Shown one piece after another: positions 2,230 through 38,359 of a DNA stretch of 64,000 nt. This DNA is from an uncultured Roseovarius sp. Lineage in GTDB: Bacteria > Pseudomonadota > Alphaproteobacteria > Rhodobacterales > Rhodobacteraceae. The translations under genes were made by a program, and so were the position numbers. Position 1 is the stretch's first letter. Each line of letters begins with the position of its first letter. The stretch spans positions 1-64,000 of the forward strand of contig CANMFU010000001.1 in NCBI GenBank assembly GCA_947497295.1, given 5' to 3'. The notes beneath the pieces were generated by a model, which was not told the origin of the DNA, ran no database searches, and saw only the letters and a program-made list of their open reading frames with translations.

Positions 2230-4932
2230 TTGGCATACAAAGAATTACTAGATTGGGCATCCCAAGAGAATCGGCCAACTTGGCAGAAAGACGCCTTGCG
2301 TCGGATTGCGAAAAACGGTGAGCTGACGGAAGAGGATCTATGTGTTTTGCGCACACATATCGAAGTATCCAAAGAGCTTTCCCATCATGATCTCCCAGAG
2401 CTAGACCCAATAGCCGAAGACCATCTCTCAGAGGCATCTAGCGACGCCCCAAAAACGGTTCTGGCCTCTCTTGGGCCTGTAAAGCATGTAGATCGACTGG
2501 AAACAGACCAGCCACCAATCCGGTTTGCAGTGAACGGAATCACGCTAGTTTATGGCCCCAATGGATCGGGTAAGAGTGGATACTGCCGAATAGCAAAAAA
2601 TTTATGTCGCTCTCTAGCGCCGGACAGACTGCGCGGGAATGTCTACAAGGATGTCCTCACACCTGCGGCGGAGGTGAATGTTGCATTCCGAGTTGGCGAC
2701 GACGGCGAAGAAAAGAACGAATTATTTTGGCTCGCTGACGAACAACCTCCATCAGAACTTTCAAGGATTTCCGTGTTCGATACAGCATCGGCGAGGGTCT
2801 ACGTCGATAAAGAGCGAAAGATCGAGTTTCTTCCCTACGAGCTAGACCTTCTCAACAAGCTCGGCCTTGCGGCACGCAGCTTGGACGGCGACTTTAAGAC
2901 ACAGGAAGATGCACTCAATGACCAGCTTCGAGTTGCTCTGCCGACCGGCTTTAGCAAGGACACAGCAGTTTCAGGTGTTCTGGCTAAGCTGATTCCAGAA
3001 ACACCTCTTTCAGATTTGCCGTCCAAAGAAGACATCGAGAAGCACGCTGTTTGGAGGGATGAGGAGCAGACTGAGCTTGATCGTCTGGTCGAAGAATCTA
3101 AGAACGATCCGGCTGCCATGGCGCGTTTGCGTCGCGAAGCCAAACAGGCTTTGGCAACAGTGCGCGGCAATATCTCCGATTGCGAGAGCAAAATTGGAGA
3201 TGCGGCGATAAGGGCGCTATCGGAAAAACAGAAAGACGCCGTGCGCAAACGCGAGGCGGCAGAGGCAGCAGCCAGTGAACTTTTCAAAGAGCAGCCGATA
3301 CCCGATATTGGCTCAGAGACATGGGGGCAGATGCTGAAATATGCCCGCGACTTTGCAATGGAAGTTTTTTCTGATCGCGAGGCCCCTCAGATTTCGACCG
3401 CTGGCAGATGTGTCCTGTGTCAGCAAGAATTGGACGATGATGCGTCCGCTCGATTGAAGGCGTTCGATGAGTACTTGGAGGATCGCGCCGCTGCGGATGC
3501 AGCCGCAGCCAAGAAAGGTTTCGAACAGGCGGCAACCTTAGTTTTAAATTACAGCATAAAGTCCCAACAGGAAGTTGGCACGCTTCTCGCTGGTTTCAGC
3601 GCGTTGGACGACGATAGCAAGGCTTTCGCGGTGAAAATTTGCGCGTACTTTGAAAAGGCCATAGCGCGTTTAACGCTGCTCAAGAAGGCGTTGGGAGAAA
3701 GCGAATTTAAGAATCTAGATAAACTTGAGCCTCTCCCGGACTTACCTGTCGATTTGATTTACGCCGATGAGAAAAAATTGGCTGATGACAGCGAAGAATT
3801 CGACCGTCTTGCCGCTGACGATCAGGAGTCGCTGAAGAGGGCTCTGCGAATTGCGGAGTTGAACGACCGCAAAAAACTCAGTCAGGAAATTGTTGTGATC
3901 CTTGATCGGCGGGCCAAACTAGAAGAGCGGCTCAAAATTGGCGGTTGCAGAGGACTTTGCCAGCTGACCCCAATTACCCGTCAAATCACTTTGCGTCGTC
4001 GAAAATTGCTCACGCCTTCGTTGAAGGACGCGCTAAAAGATGAACTTAGCGCGCTGCGGCATACGCATATTCCCGTCGATCTCAATGACCGTGGTGATTT
4101 GGGTAATAGCATTGTTGAAGTTGCACTGTCTGCGCAGCAGCGGGTTGCCAACAACAGCGAGGTGCTGAGCGAAGGTGAGCAGCGCGGGTTGGCGCTTGCC
4201 TGTTTCTTGGCGGAGCTTGAGGAAATTGGTCGCGATCACGGAATCATCGTCGATGATCCAGTTTCTTCACTCGATCACTCGCGGATGCAATCAGTTGCGT
4301 GTCGATTGGCTGAGGAAGCCGCTAAAGGTCGTCAAGTGATTGTCTTTACACATAATATTCTATTTCATCACATGCTTAGCTCTGAAGCACGACGCGTTCA
4401 GGTTGCCTGTCACGAAGAATGGATGAGCAGTCTTGGGGGTAGCCGTTTCGGGATCATCGACGATGCTCAAAAGCCGAGGCAGATGAAAGACGTTTCTAAA
4501 AGGCTTGCGGAGATTGATGACGACTTTAGAGAACTTTCAGATTCACAATATGATCATACTGACGAAAGTTTCCGGGAACCGGTCGTCGGTCTTTATACGC
4601 AGTTGCGAGATACATGGGAGCGCATCGTCGAAGAGATACTTTTGAACAAGGCTGTCCAAAGGTTTAGGCCGGAAATCATGACGCAGCGGCTTGAAGAAGC
4701 ATGTATCGATCCAAAAAATGATTACCCATTGATATTTGAAGGTATGAAGCGTTGCTCTCATTATTCGGGACATGATCTCGCGGAAAACCTACCAGATCAA
4801 CTCCCCGAGGCTGACGATATCATAAAGGATATCGAAGCACTCAAGGCTTTCTCTGATATGGCCTCCCAACGCAAGAAGGCGTTAAGAAAGTCAGGGAGGT
4901 ATGAAGATGGCGTGAAAGCCATTCTCCTCTGA
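2230..4932 (+). CDS. RloC/PrrC-like AAA_13-type ATPase with zinc-hook CxxC
   Basis: Walker A GPNGSGKSGYCRI, CVLC hook within predicted coiled coil, signature LSEGEQRGLALACF, Walker B GIIVDDPVSSLDHSRM, helical C-terminal domain. Confidence 0.75.
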   Translation: MAYKELLDWASQENRPTWQKDALRRIAKNGELTEEDLCVLRTHIEVSKELSHHDLPELDPIAEDHLSEASSDAPKTVLASLGPVKHVDRLETDQPPIRFAVNGITLVYGPNGSGKSGYCRIAKNLCRSLAPDRLRGNVYKDVLTPAAEVNVAFRVGDDGEEKNELFWLADEQPPSELSRISVFDTASARVYVDKERKIEFLPYELDLLNKLGLAARSLDGDFKTQEDALNDQLRVALPTGFSKDTAVSGVLAKLIPETPLSDLPSKEDIEKHAVWRDEEQTELDRLVEESKNDPAAMARLRREAKQALATVRGNISDCESKIGDAAIRALSEKQKDAVRKREAAEAAASELFKEQPIPDIGSETWGQMLKYARDFAMEVFSDREAPQISTAGRCVLCQQELDDDASARLKAFDEYLEDRAAADAAAAKKGFEQAATLVLNYSIKSQQEVGTLLAGFSALDDDSKAFAVKICAYFEKAIARLTLLKKALGESEFKNLDKLEPLPDLPVDLIYADEKKLADDSEEFDRLAADDQESLKRALRIAELNDRKKLSQEIVVILDRRAKLEERLKIGGCRGLCQLTPITRQITLRRRKLLTPSLKDALKDELSALRHTHIPVDLNDRGDLGNSIVEVALSAQQRVANNSEVLSEGEQRGLALACFLAELEEIGRDHGIIVDDPVSSLDHSRMQSVACRLAEEAAKGRQVIVFTHNILFHHMLSSEARRVQVACHEEWMSSLGGSRFGIIDDAQKPRQMKDVSKRLAEIDDDFRELSDSQYDHTDESFREPVVGLYTQLRDTWERIVEEILLNKAVQRFRPEIMTQRLEEACIDPKNDYPLIFEGMKRCSHYSGHDLAENLPDQLPEADDIIKDIEALKAFSDMASQRKKALRKSGRYEDGVKAILL

Positions 4933-6917: not shown

Positions 6918-6947
6918 GCATACGTTGCAAAAATTTCCAACGTATGC
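6918..6947. repeat. Perfect 10-bp inverted repeat in intergenic region (possible operator or leader hairpin)
   Basis: gcatacgttg-caaaaatttc-caacgtatgc. Confidence 0.6.
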
Positions 6948-7020
6948 GCTTGGGCGCTGCTCGCCTGCGGCCACAAACTGGCAGGCAAATTTGCTGTTAT
7001 CTTTCCGGAGTAACGATCAT

Positions 7021-7349
7021 GCTTAGTGCTAATCTCAAAACGGCGGCGGTCGCCGCACTTTGCACCGCTTTGGCCCTGCCTGCCGCTGCTGCGGACCACA
7101 AGGTCGAAATCATCAAGAAGACGGGCTATGCGATCACTGAATTTTACGGATCGAACAACGACACCAAAAAACTGGGAAGAGGATATTCTGGGCGCGGATG
7201 CGCTGCCGCATAACGGGTCGCTGACCATCGACTTTGACGACGGCCCCGGCCATTGCATTTTCGATTTTCCGGCCAAGTTCTAGGATGGCGACATTCTCAG
7301 GCAAGAAGACGTTGACGTTTGCGCCATTGGCGAATTTACCTTTGAATAA
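7021..7349 (+). pseudogene. Small secreted protein, disrupted by a frameshift in an A-tract and a downstream in-frame TAG
   Basis: MLSANLKTAAVAALCTALALPAAAADHKVEIIKKTGYAITEFYGSNNDTK continues in another frame as NWEEDILGADALPHNGSLTIDFDDGPGHCIFDFPAKF*DGDILRQEDVDVCAIGEFTFE*. Confidence 0.7.
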
Positions 7350-7406
7350 GACCGCGCGAATGTGACTTGGGCGGCGCGAGTCGAACACGCGCCGTCTTTC
7401 GCGACC

Positions 7407-8570
7407 TTACTGCCAGCGGTCGGAAAAATCCTTGGGGATCATCAGGATATCGCGGTCCACCTTCCGAATATCGCGGTGTCCGCAGAACGCCATCGAGACG
7501 TCCAGTTCCTTGTGGATGACCTCCAGCGCGCGGGTCACGCCGGCCTCGCCCATGGCGCCCAAACCATAGATGTAGGCCCGGCCGATATAGGTGCCGGTGG
7601 CACCCATCGCGAGCGCCTTCAGCACGTCCTGACCAGAGCGGATGCCGCTGTCCAGATGCACCTCAATCTTGCCGCCGACCGCGTCCAGGATCGCGGGCAG
7701 AGCGCGGATCGAGCTGAGCGCGCCATCAAGTTGCCGACCGCCGTGGTTGCTGACGATGATGGCGTCGGCGCCCACATTCAGCGCCTGAACCGCGTCGCGC
7801 GCATCGATGATGCCCTTGATGATCAACGGGCCATCCCACATGCGGCGAAACTGCCGGATGCGGTCCCAGTCCAGGGACACATCGAACGCTTCGTTCGTCC
7901 AGACGGCCAGATCGCTGGGGTCTTTGACGCCATGCGCATGGCCTACGATATTGCCGAAAAACCGTCGTTTGGTGCCCAGCATTCCGAGGCCCCATTGCAC
8001 CTTGGTCGCCATGTTGGCGACGCTGCGCGCGGTCAGCTTGGGCGGGGCCGAGAGTCCATTCTTGATATCCTTGTGCCGCTGGCCCAGCATTTGCAGATCG
8101 ACGGTGATGACTGCGGCGGAACATTTTGCCGCCTTGGCCCGGTCAAACAGCCGCTGCATGAAATCGTCGTCTTTGAGCGTATAGACCTGCAACCAGAACG
8201 GTTTCGACGTGTTCTCGGCCACGTCCTCGATCGAGCAGATGGACATTGTCGACAGCGTGTAGGGCACGCCAAAGCTTTCGGCGGCGCGGGCGGCCTTGAT
8301 CTCGCCATCGGCGCATTGCATGCCGGTAAGGCCGACAGGCGCCAATGCCACGGGCATTGCCACATCCTGCCCGATCATCTGGCTGGCGGTCGAGCGGCCC
8401 GCCATGTCGATGGCAACACGCTGGCGCAGCAGAATGTCATTAAAATCGCTGCTGTTGGCGCGAAACGTCTGTTCGGTCCAGCTGCCCGACTCGGTATAAT
8501 CGAAGAACATGCGCGGCACGCGGCGGCGGTAGATGCGCTTGAGATCGGCGATTTCGGTGATGACAGGCAT
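7407..8570 (-). CDS. lldD: FMN-dependent alpha-hydroxy acid dehydrogenase (L-lactate dehydrogenase type)
   Basis: MPVITEIADLKRIYRRRVPRMFFDYTESGSWTE..., IIVSNHGGRQLDGA, HLDSGIRSGQDVLKALAMGA. Confidence 0.88.
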   Translation of the reverse strand: MPVITEIADLKRIYRRRVPRMFFDYTESGSWTEQTFRANSSDFNDILLRQRVAIDMAGRSTASQMIGQDVAMPVALAPVGLTGMQCADGEIKAARAAESFGVPYTLSTMSICSIEDVAENTSKPFWLQVYTLKDDDFMQRLFDRAKAAKCSAAVITVDLQMLGQRHKDIKNGLSAPPKLTARSVANMATKVQWGLGMLGTKRRFFGNIVGHAHGVKDPSDLAVWTNEAFDVSLDWDRIRQFRRMWDGPLIIKGIIDARDAVQALNVGADAIIVSNHGGRQLDGALSSIRALPAILDAVGGKIEVHLDSGIRSGQDVLKALAMGATGTYIGRAYIYGLGAMGEAGVTRALEVIHKELDVSMAFCGHRDIRKVDRDILMIPKDFSDRWQ

Positions 8571-34489: not shown

Positions 34490-35524
34490 ATGACCAAGAC
34501 AAAAACAAATCCGGGCCGTTTCTTTGAGGATTACAGCGTTGGCCAGGTTATTGAGCACGCAGTGCCGCGCACCGTCTCGGGCGGCGAGCGGGCGCTCTAT
34601 CATGCGCTCTATCCTGCGCGCCATGCGCTGTATTCGTCTGATGAATTCGCCCGGTCCTGTGGGCTGGACGGCGCTCCGCTGGACGATCTGGCAGCGTTTC
34701 ATGTGGTGTTTGGCAAGACGGTGCCGGACATTTCGCTGAACGCGCTTGCCAATCTGGGTTATGCCGAGGGGCGCTGGCTGCGCACCGTTCATGCGGGCGA
34801 CACGCTGCGCTCGGTGTCCGAGGTGATCGGGCTGAAGCAGAACTCGAACGGCAAATCCGGCGTGGTCTGGGTGCGCACGAAAGGGTTCAACCAGCGCGAT
34901 GAGGCCGTGTTGGAGTATGTCCGCTGGGTGATGGTGAAAAAGCGCAGCACGGACGCCGCGGCGCCCGAAACGGTAGTTCCTGAACTGGCGTCCGCGCTGA
35001 GCGCCGATCAGTTGGTGATCCCGGACGGTCTGAATTTCACGAACTACGACTTCACACTGGCCGGCGAGCCGCATCGCTGGGGCGATTATGCTGTGGGCGA
35101 GGTGATCGACCATGTCGACGGTGTCACCATTGAGGAGGCCGAGCATATGTTGGCCACGCGCCTGTGGCAGAACACCGCCAAGGTGCATTTCGACAAGACA
35201 GCCCGCGAGGGCGGACGGCTGATCTATGGCGGGCATGTCATCTCGATGGCGCGCGCACTCAGCTTTAACGGGCTGGCGAATGCGCAGATCATTGCGGGAC
35301 TCAACGGCGGCGCCCATGCCAATCCGTGTCATTCTGGCGACACGGTTCGCGCCTGGAGCGAAGTTCTGGATCGCGCCGAGACTGCGGCGCCGGGCGTCGG
35401 CGCGCTGCGTCTGCGGCTGGTGGCGACCAAGGGCGGCACGGCTGGTGACGTGAAAGGCAAGGACGGCCGGTACTTGCCGGACGTCCTGCTGGACCTCGAC
35501 TATTGGACACTGATCCCGATGTGA
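34490..35524 (+). CDS. mch: MaoC-type mesaconyl-CoA hydratase
   Basis: GRFFEDYSVGQVIEHAVPRTVSGGERALYHALYPARHALYSS; tandem hotdog length. Confidence 0.85.
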   Translation: MTKTKTNPGRFFEDYSVGQVIEHAVPRTVSGGERALYHALYPARHALYSSDEFARSCGLDGAPLDDLAAFHVVFGKTVPDISLNALANLGYAEGRWLRTVHAGDTLRSVSEVIGLKQNSNGKSGVVWVRTKGFNQRDEAVLEYVRWVMVKKRSTDAAAPETVVPELASALSADQLVIPDGLNFTNYDFTLAGEPHRWGDYAVGEVIDHVDGVTIEEAEHMLATRLWQNTAKVHFDKTAREGGRLIYGGHVISMARALSFNGLANAQIIAGLNGGAHANPCHSGDTVRAWSEVLDRAETAAPGVGALRLRLVATKGGTAGDVKGKDGRYLPDVLLDLDYWTLIPM

Positions 35525-35614: not shown

Positions 35615-35849
35615 ATGGTGACGGTAGCGCTGTGCCGAGATGATGGCGCGGGCCGTGATTCGGGCCTGCCCGTTTACGACAGCGGTGGCTCTGGCGCGGT
35701 TCTGGCACCTGGAGCGCGGGCGCTGATGCCGACAGGGCCGCGGCTGGCAATCCTCGAGAGGAATCAAGTGCAGCTGCGGCCACGCTCGGTACTGACGCAG
35801 AAACATAGCGTGATATAGAGCCAATGCGTCAGGCGCGATCGACAGCGAT
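35615..35849 (+). pseudogene. dut: 5' fragment of native dUTPase gene (decayed)
   Basis: MVTVALCRDDGAGRDSGLPVYDSGG...LAPGARALMPTGPRLAILERNQVQLRPRSVLTQKHSV; after a +1 shift, (g)ccaatgcgtcaggcgcgatcgacagcgat reads ANASGAIDSD, matching dUTPase NAPGTIDSD. Confidence 0.75.
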
Positions 35850-35883
35850 ATTTATGACATTGCGAAAGTGGATGAATCCGCTT

Positions 35884-35913
35884 GTTAGCGGCGCGGCCAA
35901 GACTGTCGCTAAC
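35884..35913. repeat. Inverted repeat followed by T-rich stretch near the left end of the dut insertion
   Basis: gttagcg-N16-cgctaac then ttctgttttttctgttgttt. Confidence 0.45.
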
Positions 35914-35940
35914 TTCTGTTTTTTCTGTTGTTTGGGGTGG

Positions 35941-36312
35941 TTATTTTACAGGCAGATAGGGGGCTACGTAGCCTTCTTGTAGCGCAGCAGCCGCCAATCT
36001 GCCTTGCGCAACGAGAAACACTTGGGATGTCGGGTTTTTTAAACAGGTATTTGTTTTATCTGAGCGTTTTGAGCGGCTGAAATTTTTAAGCGGCTCACTT
36101 TCGTCAATTGCCGACACTGCGATCCCAAGTACGGCTTCCGGCGGCACTTCCAGCGCCCGAGCCAGAGCAAAAAATTCAATCGCATCAATTCGTCGTTGGC
36201 CGCTCTCGATCTTCGCAGTCATGGAGGGCAGGCGCCCAAGTTTAGCTGCGAGATCACGCTGCGAGGATCTGAGAAAGCGAGCGGACAGACTGGATGCGTT
36301 TGCGACGGTCAC
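35941..36312 (-). CDS. XRE-family HTH regulator (start uncertain, GTG proposed)
   Basis: SQRDLAAKLGRLPSMTAKIESGQRRIDAIEFFALARALEVPPEAVLG. Confidence 0.6.
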   Translation of the reverse strand: MTVANASSLSARFLRSSQRDLAAKLGRLPSMTAKIESGQRRIDAIEFFALARALEVPPEAVLGIAVSAIDESEPLKNFSRSKRSDKTNTCLKNPTSQVFLVAQGRLAAAALQEGYVAPYLPVK

Positions 36313-36568
36313 GAGACCATCTGAAGAAACGCCGTCAAATATCAATGATAGAGAGCATGCCGCATTTCTGCTCCAAAACTTCGTGGCGGCCAAGACCCTG
36401 AGAGACCAAGAGCTTGAACGCGTCGAAAAGCTAAACACAGAACTACTTGATGCTAAGCAGCAATTTGGTGAAATGGATACGTCCTCCGAATGTGCTTCCA
36501 TTCAAGTGGAATATCCTCCGGTGTTGTTTGATACTTTGCTGAGAAGAAATGAGAATTTGAATGGCTGA
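36221..36568 (+). CDS. Small hypothetical protein (start uncertain, partly antisense to the XRE gene)
   Basis: INDREHAAFLLQNFVAAKTLRDQELERVEKLNTELLDAKQQFGEMDTSSECASIQVEYPPVLFDTLLRRNENLNG. Confidence 0.45.
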   Translation: MEGRRPSLAARSRCEDLRKRADRLDAFATVTRPSEETPSNINDREHAAFLLQNFVAAKTLRDQELERVEKLNTELLDAKQQFGEMDTSSECASIQVEYPPVLFDTLLRRNENLNG

Positions 36569-36580
36569 CGGAGAGCGAAA

Positions 36581-37036
36581 GTGCAGATAAAGATTACTGA
36601 CCCACGGCTAGCAGATTGGGGGTTGCCAAAGTTCCAGTCTGAAGGAGCCGCCGGAATCGACCTTGTGGCGTGTATAGATGACACGATGCTCATTGATGCC
36701 CAAGCCCCTTCAATTCTCATGAATTCTGGCATAGCGATCTCTTTCGGGGATTTATCGATAGCCGGACTTGTGTTGCCTCGATCAGGATTGGGACACAAAA
36801 AAGGATTAGTGCTGGGAAACACAGCCGGATTGATTGATCCCGACTATGATGGCGAAATACTGATCAGTGTTTGGAATCGAAGTGCGATCGGCACGCCGCC
36901 AATCGAAATTCACCCCGGAGAGCGAATTGCTCAGATGGTTTTTGTGCCGATTGTCCGTCCAACATTTGAGATCGTTGAAAACTTCACCAACCAGACAGGG
37001 CGTGGTGACGGTGGGTTCGGGTCGACTGGCAGCTGA
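36581..37036 (+). CDS. dut: Complete dUTP diphosphatase, gammaproteobacterial/phage-like type
   Basis: All five motifs: AAGIDLVA, LPRSGLGHKKGLVLGN, GLIDPDYDGEILISVWNRS, PGERIAQMVFVPIV, RGDGGFGSTG. Confidence 0.9.
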   Translation: MQIKITDPRLADWGLPKFQSEGAAGIDLVACIDDTMLIDAQAPSILMNSGIAISFGDLSIAGLVLPRSGLGHKKGLVLGNTAGLIDPDYDGEILISVWNRSAIGTPPIEIHPGERIAQMVFVPIVRPTFEIVENFTNQTGRGDGGFGSTGS

Positions 37037-37130
37037 TGATAGTGTAACGGTCTTCATCTGGTTTCATCTTGAAAATGGATGGAGTAGTCATAAGGTGCTG
37101 AAATAAATGAACTTCATCCACGTTCCTGTC

Positions 37131-37313
37131 CTGAGATCGGACTATCGCGGGCCGCTGGGGGTGATCCCGATCAATCCGGGCGATGCGCTGTTCGAAGTGG
37201 TACATGATGCGCAAATTACGCAGATGGTTGTCGCGCCTGTCGTTGGGGCGGAGTTTGCGCTGGAGAACACGGCGCGCGGCAAGGGCGGCTTTGGTTCGAC
37301 CGGGGTGGGCTGA
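37131..37313 (+). pseudogene. dut: 3' fragment of native dUTPase gene
   Basis: SDYRGPLGVIPINPGDALFEVVHDAQITQMVVAPVVGAEFALENTARGKGGFGSTGVG, ending in the moeB start codon. Confidence 0.85.
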
Positions 37314-38359
37314 TGCTGTTGGTTCTGATCCTCGCTGGCGTGCTTTGGGGTCTGGGGGCGCTTTTGGGCACGCCCCGGCGCTTGCGCTGGGGGATGATCG
37401 CGTTTCTATGGGCTGGTGTGGTGCTGATGCATCTGATGCTGCCTGCGGCCTCGCCCCTGCGCGTCGCGACCGGCGGCAGTGCAGCGCTTTGGCTGCTGTT
37501 GGGCGGGTTTGCGGCGCTGGTGTTGATTTATCGCGCCGGGCTGCGCCGGGTGCGGGCGCGCGCGGAGGCGGGCAACGTGCCGGTCGAGCGCAGCGGCGCG
37601 TTTTCGGATGCCGAGCTGGAGCGTTACGCGCGCCATATCGTCCTGCGCGAGGTTGGCGGACCGGGACAGAAGAAGCTGAAAAACGCCAGTGTTCTGGTGA
37701 TCGGCGCGGGCGGTCTGGGATCGCCGGTAATGAGCTATCTGGGCGCGGCGGGTGTCGGCACGATCGGCGTGATCGACGATGACGTGGTCGATCTGTCCAA
37801 CCTCCAGCGGCAGGTGATTCACCGCGACGCGGATATCGGCGTGCCCAAGGTGCATTCCGCCGCCGCAGCCGTGCGCGCGCTGAACCCGCATGTGGAAATG
37901 CGCCCCTACGCGCGCCGCCTTACCGAAGACATCGCCGCCGATCTGTTTGCTGACTATGACATGATCCTTGACGGGACGGATAATTTTGCAACCCGGCATC
38001 TGGTGAACCGTACCGCGGTTGCCACCGGAAAACCTTTGATTTCCGGCGCTCTGGCCCAGTGGGAGGGGCAGCTGAGCGTGTTCGATCCCGCAAATGGCGC
38101 CCCCTGCTATGCCTGCATTTTCCCCGACATTCCGGCTGAGGGGCTGGCGCCGTCCTGCGCCGAGGCCGGTGTGATGGGGCCGCTGCCCGGCGTTATCGGT
38201 GCGATGATGGCGGGCGAGGCGATCAAGCTGATCACGGGCGCGGGCGCGCCGCTGCGCGGGACGCTGCTTATCTATGACGCGCTTTTTTCCGACGCGCGCC
38301 GCATTCAAATCAAACGCCGCGCGGATTGCGCCGTCTGCGGCACCAAGGAGGCCACATGA
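37313..38359 (+). CDS. moeB: MoeB/ThiF/HesA family adenylyltransferase
   Basis: YARHIVLREVGGPGQKKLKNASVLVIGAGGLGSPVMSYLGAAGVG. Confidence 0.93.
   Translation: MLLVLILAGVLWGLGALLGTPRRLRWGMIAFLWAGVVLMHLMLPAASPLRVATGGSAALWLLLGGFAALVLIYRAGLRRVRARAEAGNVPVERSGAFSDAELERYARHIVLREVGGPGQKKLKNASVLVIGAGGLGSPVMSYLGAAGVGTIGVIDDDVVDLSNLQRQVIHRDADIGVPKVHSAAAAVRALNPHVEMRPYARRLTEDIAADLFADYDMILDGTDNFATRHLVNRTAVATGKPLISGALAQWEGQLSVFDPANGAPCYACIFPDIPAEGLAPSCAEAGVMGPLPGVIGAMMAGEAIKLITGAGAPLRGTLLIYDALFSDARRIQIKRRADCAVCGTKEAT

Follow-up and report, generated by a model that had tools for sequence, protein, structure and literature searches.

The resident dUTPase gene (dut) of an uncultured Roseovarius sp. is split by an insert of 1,287 bp (35850-37136) that carries an XRE gene, an orphan open reading frame (ORF) and an intact, foreign dUTPase. 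The window, i.e. the whole stretch of DNA that was analysed, comprises 64,000 nucleotides. The likely origin of this arrangement is a site-specific element of the GInt/SE/Tn554 type with a foreign dUTPase, which split the resident dut, replaced it and later decayed; mobilisation of the insert by a recombinase and the supply of the essential activity are inferred parts of this account. The insert is probably the half-decayed remainder of such an element. It is described here as a relic working like a GInt/SE element, and not as a member of that group, because the four-gene recombinase operon is absent.

The order in the window is a mesaconyl-CoA hydratase-like gene, dut', the insert, dut'' and moeB (Table 1), and the split is directly observed. 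A profile of same-genus resident dut genes (48 sequences before removal of duplicates) matched 35615-35818 over profile positions 1-81 (E 6e-11) and 37131-37307 over positions 88-150 (E 9e-20), which bears out the proposal in the initial annotation that a native dut is interrupted at the IDSDYRG motif by an insertion of about 1.3 kb. Read from the sequence, the frame of dut' (35615-35818) ends in TAG and is continued after a one-base shift by ANASGAIDSD (35820-35849); the frameshift and the loss of motif 1 that had been described are both present. The dut'' part opens with SDYRGPLGV at 37137; at its end, TGATG, the moeB ATG overlaps at 37313. This fragment scored 51 bits against NF001862 (dut equivalog), below the full-length cut-off of 103. 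Another complete resident dut elsewhere would have refuted the proposal, but no other complete dUTPase was found in the genome, which is 99.97% complete; besides the gene at 36581-37036, only dut'' and one dcd-like sequence matched. The presence of a single intact dUTPase is thus also a direct observation.

Table 1. Features of the split dut locus, with positions in the window.
Feature	Position	Strand	Remarks
Mesaconyl-CoA hydratase-like gene	34490..35524	+	Pfam PF19315; upstream neighbour, in the slot held by coaBC in most sister genomes
dut', decayed 5' half of resident dut	35615..35849	+	Lacks motif 1; after a stop (35816-35818) and a one-base shift the reading resumes as ANASGAIDSD
Left 6-bp core AGCGAT (Ser-Asp codons)	35844..35849	+	The hexamer most often found here in intact resident dut genes
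Left end of insert, ATTTATGAC	35850..35858	+	Same as the element flank after dut' in P. alkanivorans
XRE-family regulator, cargo	35941..36312	-	PF01381 above cut-off; related proteins on Rhodobacteraceae plasmids
Small orphan ORF with coiled-coil-like end	36221..36568	+	Immediately precedes the dUTPase; uncertain start, with overlap of its 5' part and the XRE gene
Intact foreign (E. coli-type) dUTPase	36581..37036	+	GTG start; all five motifs present
Right end of insert, about 100 bp	37037..37136	+	Resembles the right ends of two related loci, L069 and L066
Right 6-bp core TCGGAC (Ser-Asp codons)	37137..37142	+	Differs from the left copy; read as footprint of the previous target
dut'', 3' half of resident dut	37137..37313	+	SDYRG to TGA; overlaps the moeB start
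moeB (ThiF family), native flank	37313..38359	+	PF00899; 86% identical in sister G087

The GC content of the insert is 0.493 against a window mean of 0.614, essentially the lowest of any stretch of that size in the window, and the insert is thus AT-richer than its flanks as had been noted by eye. A change in composition this sharp could also result from an assembly artefact or from contamination, an explanation that can practically be dismissed because the contig around the insert is 1.3 Mb long and belongs to a genome that is 99.97% complete, and because the same junctions occur in independent genomes. No recombinase homologue was found between 35850 and 37136, in line with the earlier failure to see any integrase or transposase. 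The orphan ORF had no family match, and neither 85 genomes of the genus nor 72,556 plasmid records contained a relative. It is possibly the end of a ginD/tnpC-like gene, which has not been shown: its coiled coil and that of ginD, the fourth gene of the recombinase operon described below, align collinearly, but 138 of 2000 shuffles scored as high, and a profile comparison with the fourth gene gave no match. The similarity of the right end of the insert to that of locus L069 was reached by 0 of 1000 shuffles and the similarity to L066 by 11 of 1000. In Oceaniovalibus the right end has, by inspection, the same spacing of 36 bp from ATGAAC to TAT; the local alignment itself is not significant (218/1000).

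The XRE gene adjoins the dUTPase and dUTPases are common in phages, so that the insert might be read as a prophage remnant, in which an XRE repressor and a dUTPase formed a phage switch (cf. phage dUTPase-Stl) or the dUTPase was merely phage-borne. This reading is highly improbable. Phage dUTPases reach only about 50% identity as opposed to 85% for bacterial relatives, neither the dUTPase nor the large recombinase has relatives in IMG/VR, and the other foreign-dut loci contain no XRE homologue. A search for the XRE-ORF-dUTPase combination in other genomes, proposed in the initial annotation, gave no homologous pair at any other foreign-dut locus, and its status as a conserved cassette was rejected.

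The gene at 36581-37036 is the intact dUTPase that the insert had been said to carry, with 150 bits against NF001862 (cut-off 103) and 98.8 bits against PF00692 (trimeric dUTPase, cut-off 22), full-length and with the conserved motifs. Identity to the resident genes is only about 40%. Relatives in the genus are found at 73% (G011) and 68% (G087), and others at 65-85% in Sulfitobacter, Oceaniovalibus, Pseudorhodobacter, Oceaniglobus and further genera. The phylogenetic tree places it beside Rhodobacteraceae F11138 and Sulfitobacter, well separated from the resident type. Of the earlier assignment to the E. coli/gammaproteobacterial type, the broad E. coli type holds, but the nearest relatives are other Rhodobacteraceae and not gammaproteobacteria. 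The source of the enzyme, as far as sequence comparison alone can tell, is the pool of E. coli-type dUTPases circulating in Rhodobacteraceae. Relative to the F11138 gene dN is 0.084 and dS 1.37, and the foreign dUTPase gene is under purifying selection.

Forcing the three same-genus foreign copies into one clade was rejected (AU p 0.0045), and a clade of the window and sister G087 was not rejected (AU p 0.152). A single acquisition common to these two alone is disfavoured by the 68% identity of the dUTPases compared with 86-88% for the flanking genes. The window and F11138 are 84% identical in the dUTPase and 67% in moeB, whereas the window and G087 are 68% identical in the dUTPase and 86% in moeB; from this conflict it follows that the foreign dUTPase gene moved independently of its neighbours. 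Homologous recombination across coaBC and moeB, by which an already replaced locus would be moved between species, may well be the route by which clean replacements spread, and it suits the position of the foreign gene directly before moeB in nearly all foreign-type loci, some with coaBC before it. As the explanation of the window it is very unlikely, since moeB, the M3 peptidase gene and coaBC agree with G087 (86-88%) and the dUTPase does not (68%), and since the locus retains both resident halves.

Upstream of the foreign dut start, the loci L064, L065 and L066 (about 3955-3985) share a short CCATATAGAT-like motif, perhaps a promoter travelling with the foreign dut. The motif is missing in the window, where the foreign dut closely follows the orphan ORF.

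The position of the break can be compared with that in Paracoccus alkanivorans. The break in the window falls in the Ser-Asp of IDSDYRG, and the dut of P. alkanivorans is cut at the same codons. On the left side of the window GACAGCGAT is followed by ATTTATGAC at 35850, and on the right side TCGGAC is followed by TATCGC. The dut' of P. alkanivorans is uninterrupted up to GACAGCGAC and is then followed by ATTTATGAC, a sequence with a single match in the 64-kb window, at 35850 (0.14 expected). The right junction of P. alkanivorans, on another contig, has the order foreign dUTPase, GTCATAAAT, AGCGAT, TATCGC, dut'' and moeB. Target codons and a nine-base flank common to two genera are accordingly matters of direct observation. 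In P. alkanivorans GTCATAAAT is the reversed nonamer of ATTTATGAC, giving a terminal inverted repeat that is perfect over nine bases; the match to the left end is 5 of 9 bases for the right end in the window and 7 of 9 for that in Oceaniovalibus.

The C-terminal resident remnant starts at residue 89 in P. alkanivorans, 90 in the window and 91 in Oceaniovalibus sp. ACAM 378, and in G011 at residue 90 with a weak match (E 0.04). Local alignments often begin at conserved motifs, so that these starts are no proof of a shared break by themselves; for the window and P. alkanivorans the junction DNA (core and ATTTATGAC) does provide that proof. Both junctions carry a Ser-Asp core, and its two copies differ: they read AGCGAT and TCGGAC in the window, AGCGAC and AGCGAT in P. 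alkanivorans; AGCGAT occupies this site in 23 of 43 intact resident dut genes. Integration of SEs and of Tn554 leaves two different 6-bp junctions, that of the target and one brought from the previous location (PMC10214605), and the two core versions per insertion agree with this prediction. If the two-footprint rule applies, the previous location of the element was also a dut.

Plain horizontal transfer, in which a fragment with a foreign dut landed in the resident gene by illegitimate or microhomology insertion and without a dedicated recombinase, would fit the lack of a recombinase in the window and the many clean in-situ replacements without any element, and recombination between two dUTPase genes could start at their conserved motifs. 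It leaves unexplained the exact break with nine adjoining non-dut bases common to two genera, the four remnants that begin at essentially the same residue, the 6-bp core present in two versions at both junctions, and the recombinase operon that adjoins the foreign dUTPase in P. alkanivorans. This explanation is regarded as unlikely, and insertion by a site-specific element is preferred.

The operon, which is likewise directly observed, consists of four consecutive genes of 421, 650, 676 and 166 amino acids upstream of the foreign dUTPase, the last gene before the right end. Genes 1 and 3 have Pfam integrase domains and are XerC/XerA-like; in the authors' reading of the sequences gene 2 is without the catalytic arginine and gene 4 ends in a coiled coil. 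A Microvirga plasmid carries homologues of all four genes in the same order (E 3e-19, 9e-41, 2e-39 and 1e-5). By gene content and order the operon is of the GInt/SE/Tn554-type make-up; no comparison with published GInt/SE proteins underlies this assignment, and recombination is inferred. The claim that an element targeted dut while supplying the replacement gains support from the target codons, the nine-base flank and the tyrosine-recombinase operon of P. alkanivorans. The dut halves of this species are on two contigs with no visible left end bounding the operon, and no whole element between two dut halves was found. The operon was not detected in 397 family genomes (E 1e-15) or 385 class genomes (E 1e-12), a set without a positive control, and the carrier is therefore rare or poorly sampled.

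Two minor features of P. alkanivorans were seen: a transposase-like ORF (IS1182-like by eye) on the reverse strand just inside the left end of the element (L168, about 6939-8342), and a dut' that follows infC, not coaBC. The Microvirga quartet (Microvirga sp. VF16 plasmid pMVF16-3, L174 3205-10961) adjoins a KwaB-like (Kiwa) anti-phage gene, which suggests that defence genes, too, are among the cargo of these elements in Alphaproteobacteria.

GInts consist of three tyrosine recombinase-like proteins and a small protein, followed by cargo, and have high target specificity and imperfect end repeats (Bardaji et al. 2017, PMC5385486). The P. alkanivorans element has the same four-gene operon followed by cargo, but the protein read as lacking the catalytic arginine is the middle large one, whereas in GInts it is GinC. 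The reported GInt targets differ as well: they are mostly ssb ends and intergenic sites, the target is not fully inactivated, and neither a dut target nor a replacement gene is among them (PMC5385486). Strand-biased circularizing integrative elements (SEs) encode an integrase, an incomplete large recombinase-fold protein, an integrase and a coiled-coil protein (Idola et al. 2023, PMC10214605). The P. alkanivorans element shares this gene order, and the dut insertions share the different 6-bp junctions and the integration at few selected sites. SEs are however reported only from Gammaproteobacteria; the authors found none in Alphaproteobacteria and described no dut target (PMC10214605). A further likeness is to Tn554, which combines tyrosine recombinases with a small TnpC, a 6-bp footprint and insertion in a conserved gene. 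The gene targeted by Tn554 is radC. There are two recombinases in Tn554, not three, and the target gene is not replaced.

The foreign dUTPase has been acquired repeatedly in place of the resident gene. Among the moeB loci fetched from the genus, coaBC-dut-moeB is intact in 21 of 22 members, the exception being G011, which is itself replaced; this comparison with sister genomes, advised in the initial annotation as a check for an empty site, gives coaBC-dut-moeB as the ancestral state. The foreign type was found at E 1e-40 in 8 of 397 family genomes, nearly all of different genera. The resident dut is kept in none of the eight, and the foreign gene itself accounts for their best resident-type matches (1e-17 to 1e-23). 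A full-length resident dut was also absent from a second set of foreign-type genomes (0/21), and a clear dut' relic was found only in P. alkanivorans among the other foreign-type genomes. The foreign dut is located directly before moeB in seven other family genomes and at nearly all of the named Rhodobacteraceae loci checked, some with coaBC directly upstream. In G087 and Sulfitobacter F26204 its end overlaps or touches the moeB start, like the resident gene. Recurrent replacement in situ is thus a direct observation, and on sequence evidence the foreign gene replaces rather than adds to the resident dut, almost always in the dut slot.

In the genome of the window coaBC is on another contig (G000:C2). 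It also lies outside the dut-moeB locus in sister G087 and has the same new neighbours there (L162, L164). Because coaBC is displaced alike in both, the junction upstream of dut was probably rearranged before the lineages split.

According to the proposed mechanism, a tyrosine-recombinase element would integrate into the resident dut at the 6-bp Ser-Asp core of IDSDYRG. With the foreign dUTPase near the right end of the element the host enzyme would, by inference, be lost and a substitute gained in one step. Loss of the element would then cost the host its dUTPase and make the insert indispensable. SE-type elements stay because they leave no empty site on circularising (PMC10214605). Subsequently the recombinase genes would be deleted and the resident halves would decay, with selection keeping the foreign dUTPase alone. 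The remnants would vanish last, so that the foreign gene would come to lie against moeB, the state found in G087 and Sulfitobacter F26204. As a further inference, they could be cleared in one step by recombination between the GGFGSTG ends, which are conserved.

The closest precedent for the dut insertion is an island of 65 kb in Pseudomonas putida KT2440, which splits tmk and whose last gene, PP_1964, encodes a replacement kinase shown to be essential (Wirth et al. 2023, PMC10653934). Its relatives keep four flanking genes, namely two for tyrosine recombinases, a TetR-like gene and one unknown; the authors called the island prophage-like and the first case, and element-free end states exist (PMC10653934). 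As with the dut insert, the gene interrupted by the island is an essential one for thymidine nucleotides and overlaps its downstream neighbour (holB there, moeB here), and the replacement enzyme is encoded by the last gene of the island. The replacement in the island is a relative of the T4-type phage kinase, whereas that of dut belongs, as a distant member, to the dUTPase family of the gene it replaces, and the island is still large, whereas the dut insert is a 1.3-kb relic in Rhodobacteraceae hosts. The Srap protein of SEs has a weak TetR-like N-terminus (PMC10214605), and the tmk islands may, by inference from analogy, be elements of the SE/GInt type. In the literature no paper was found that links tmk islands to SE/GInt elements or that describes dut as a target.

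That a distant homologue can take over the chromosomal position of an essential gene is well known as a pattern, but it is usually unclear how a lethal gap is avoided. The present genomes show intermediate stages, with a recombinase-bearing element in P. alkanivorans, decaying splits in the window and Oceaniovalibus, and clean replacements in many genera, and they offer a testable mechanism and an addiction-like strategy for a mobile element. It is probable that dut is the second case beside the tmk island; it brings in another essential gene and another bacterial family and shows more of the decay stages. The evidence is evenly balanced as to whether the dut elements and the Pseudomonas tmk islands form one class, characterized by a tyrosine-recombinase quartet, a break at a conserved motif of an essential nucleotide gene, a substitute as end gene and a host made dependent. 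If they do, essential thymidine-metabolism genes would be replaced as part of the lifestyle of the element and not by accident, many clean bacterial gene replacements would be the last stage of an element-driven process, and the differing 6-bp footprints would show the element moving from dut to dut.

Some further observations concern members of the genus. G011 has a repeat of about 80-90 bp before the foreign dut and after coaBC (L035, about 1400-1490) and a second copy upstream of the dut''-moeB remnant (L019, about 3490-3560, minus strand); recombination between the copies could explain why this locus is torn in two. G015, which is 100% complete, G072 and G093 have no match to the trimeric dUTPase family and may use another type of dUTPase. 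G047 retains the resident dut and has in addition a second, distant dUTPase (G047:C3:16386-16808).
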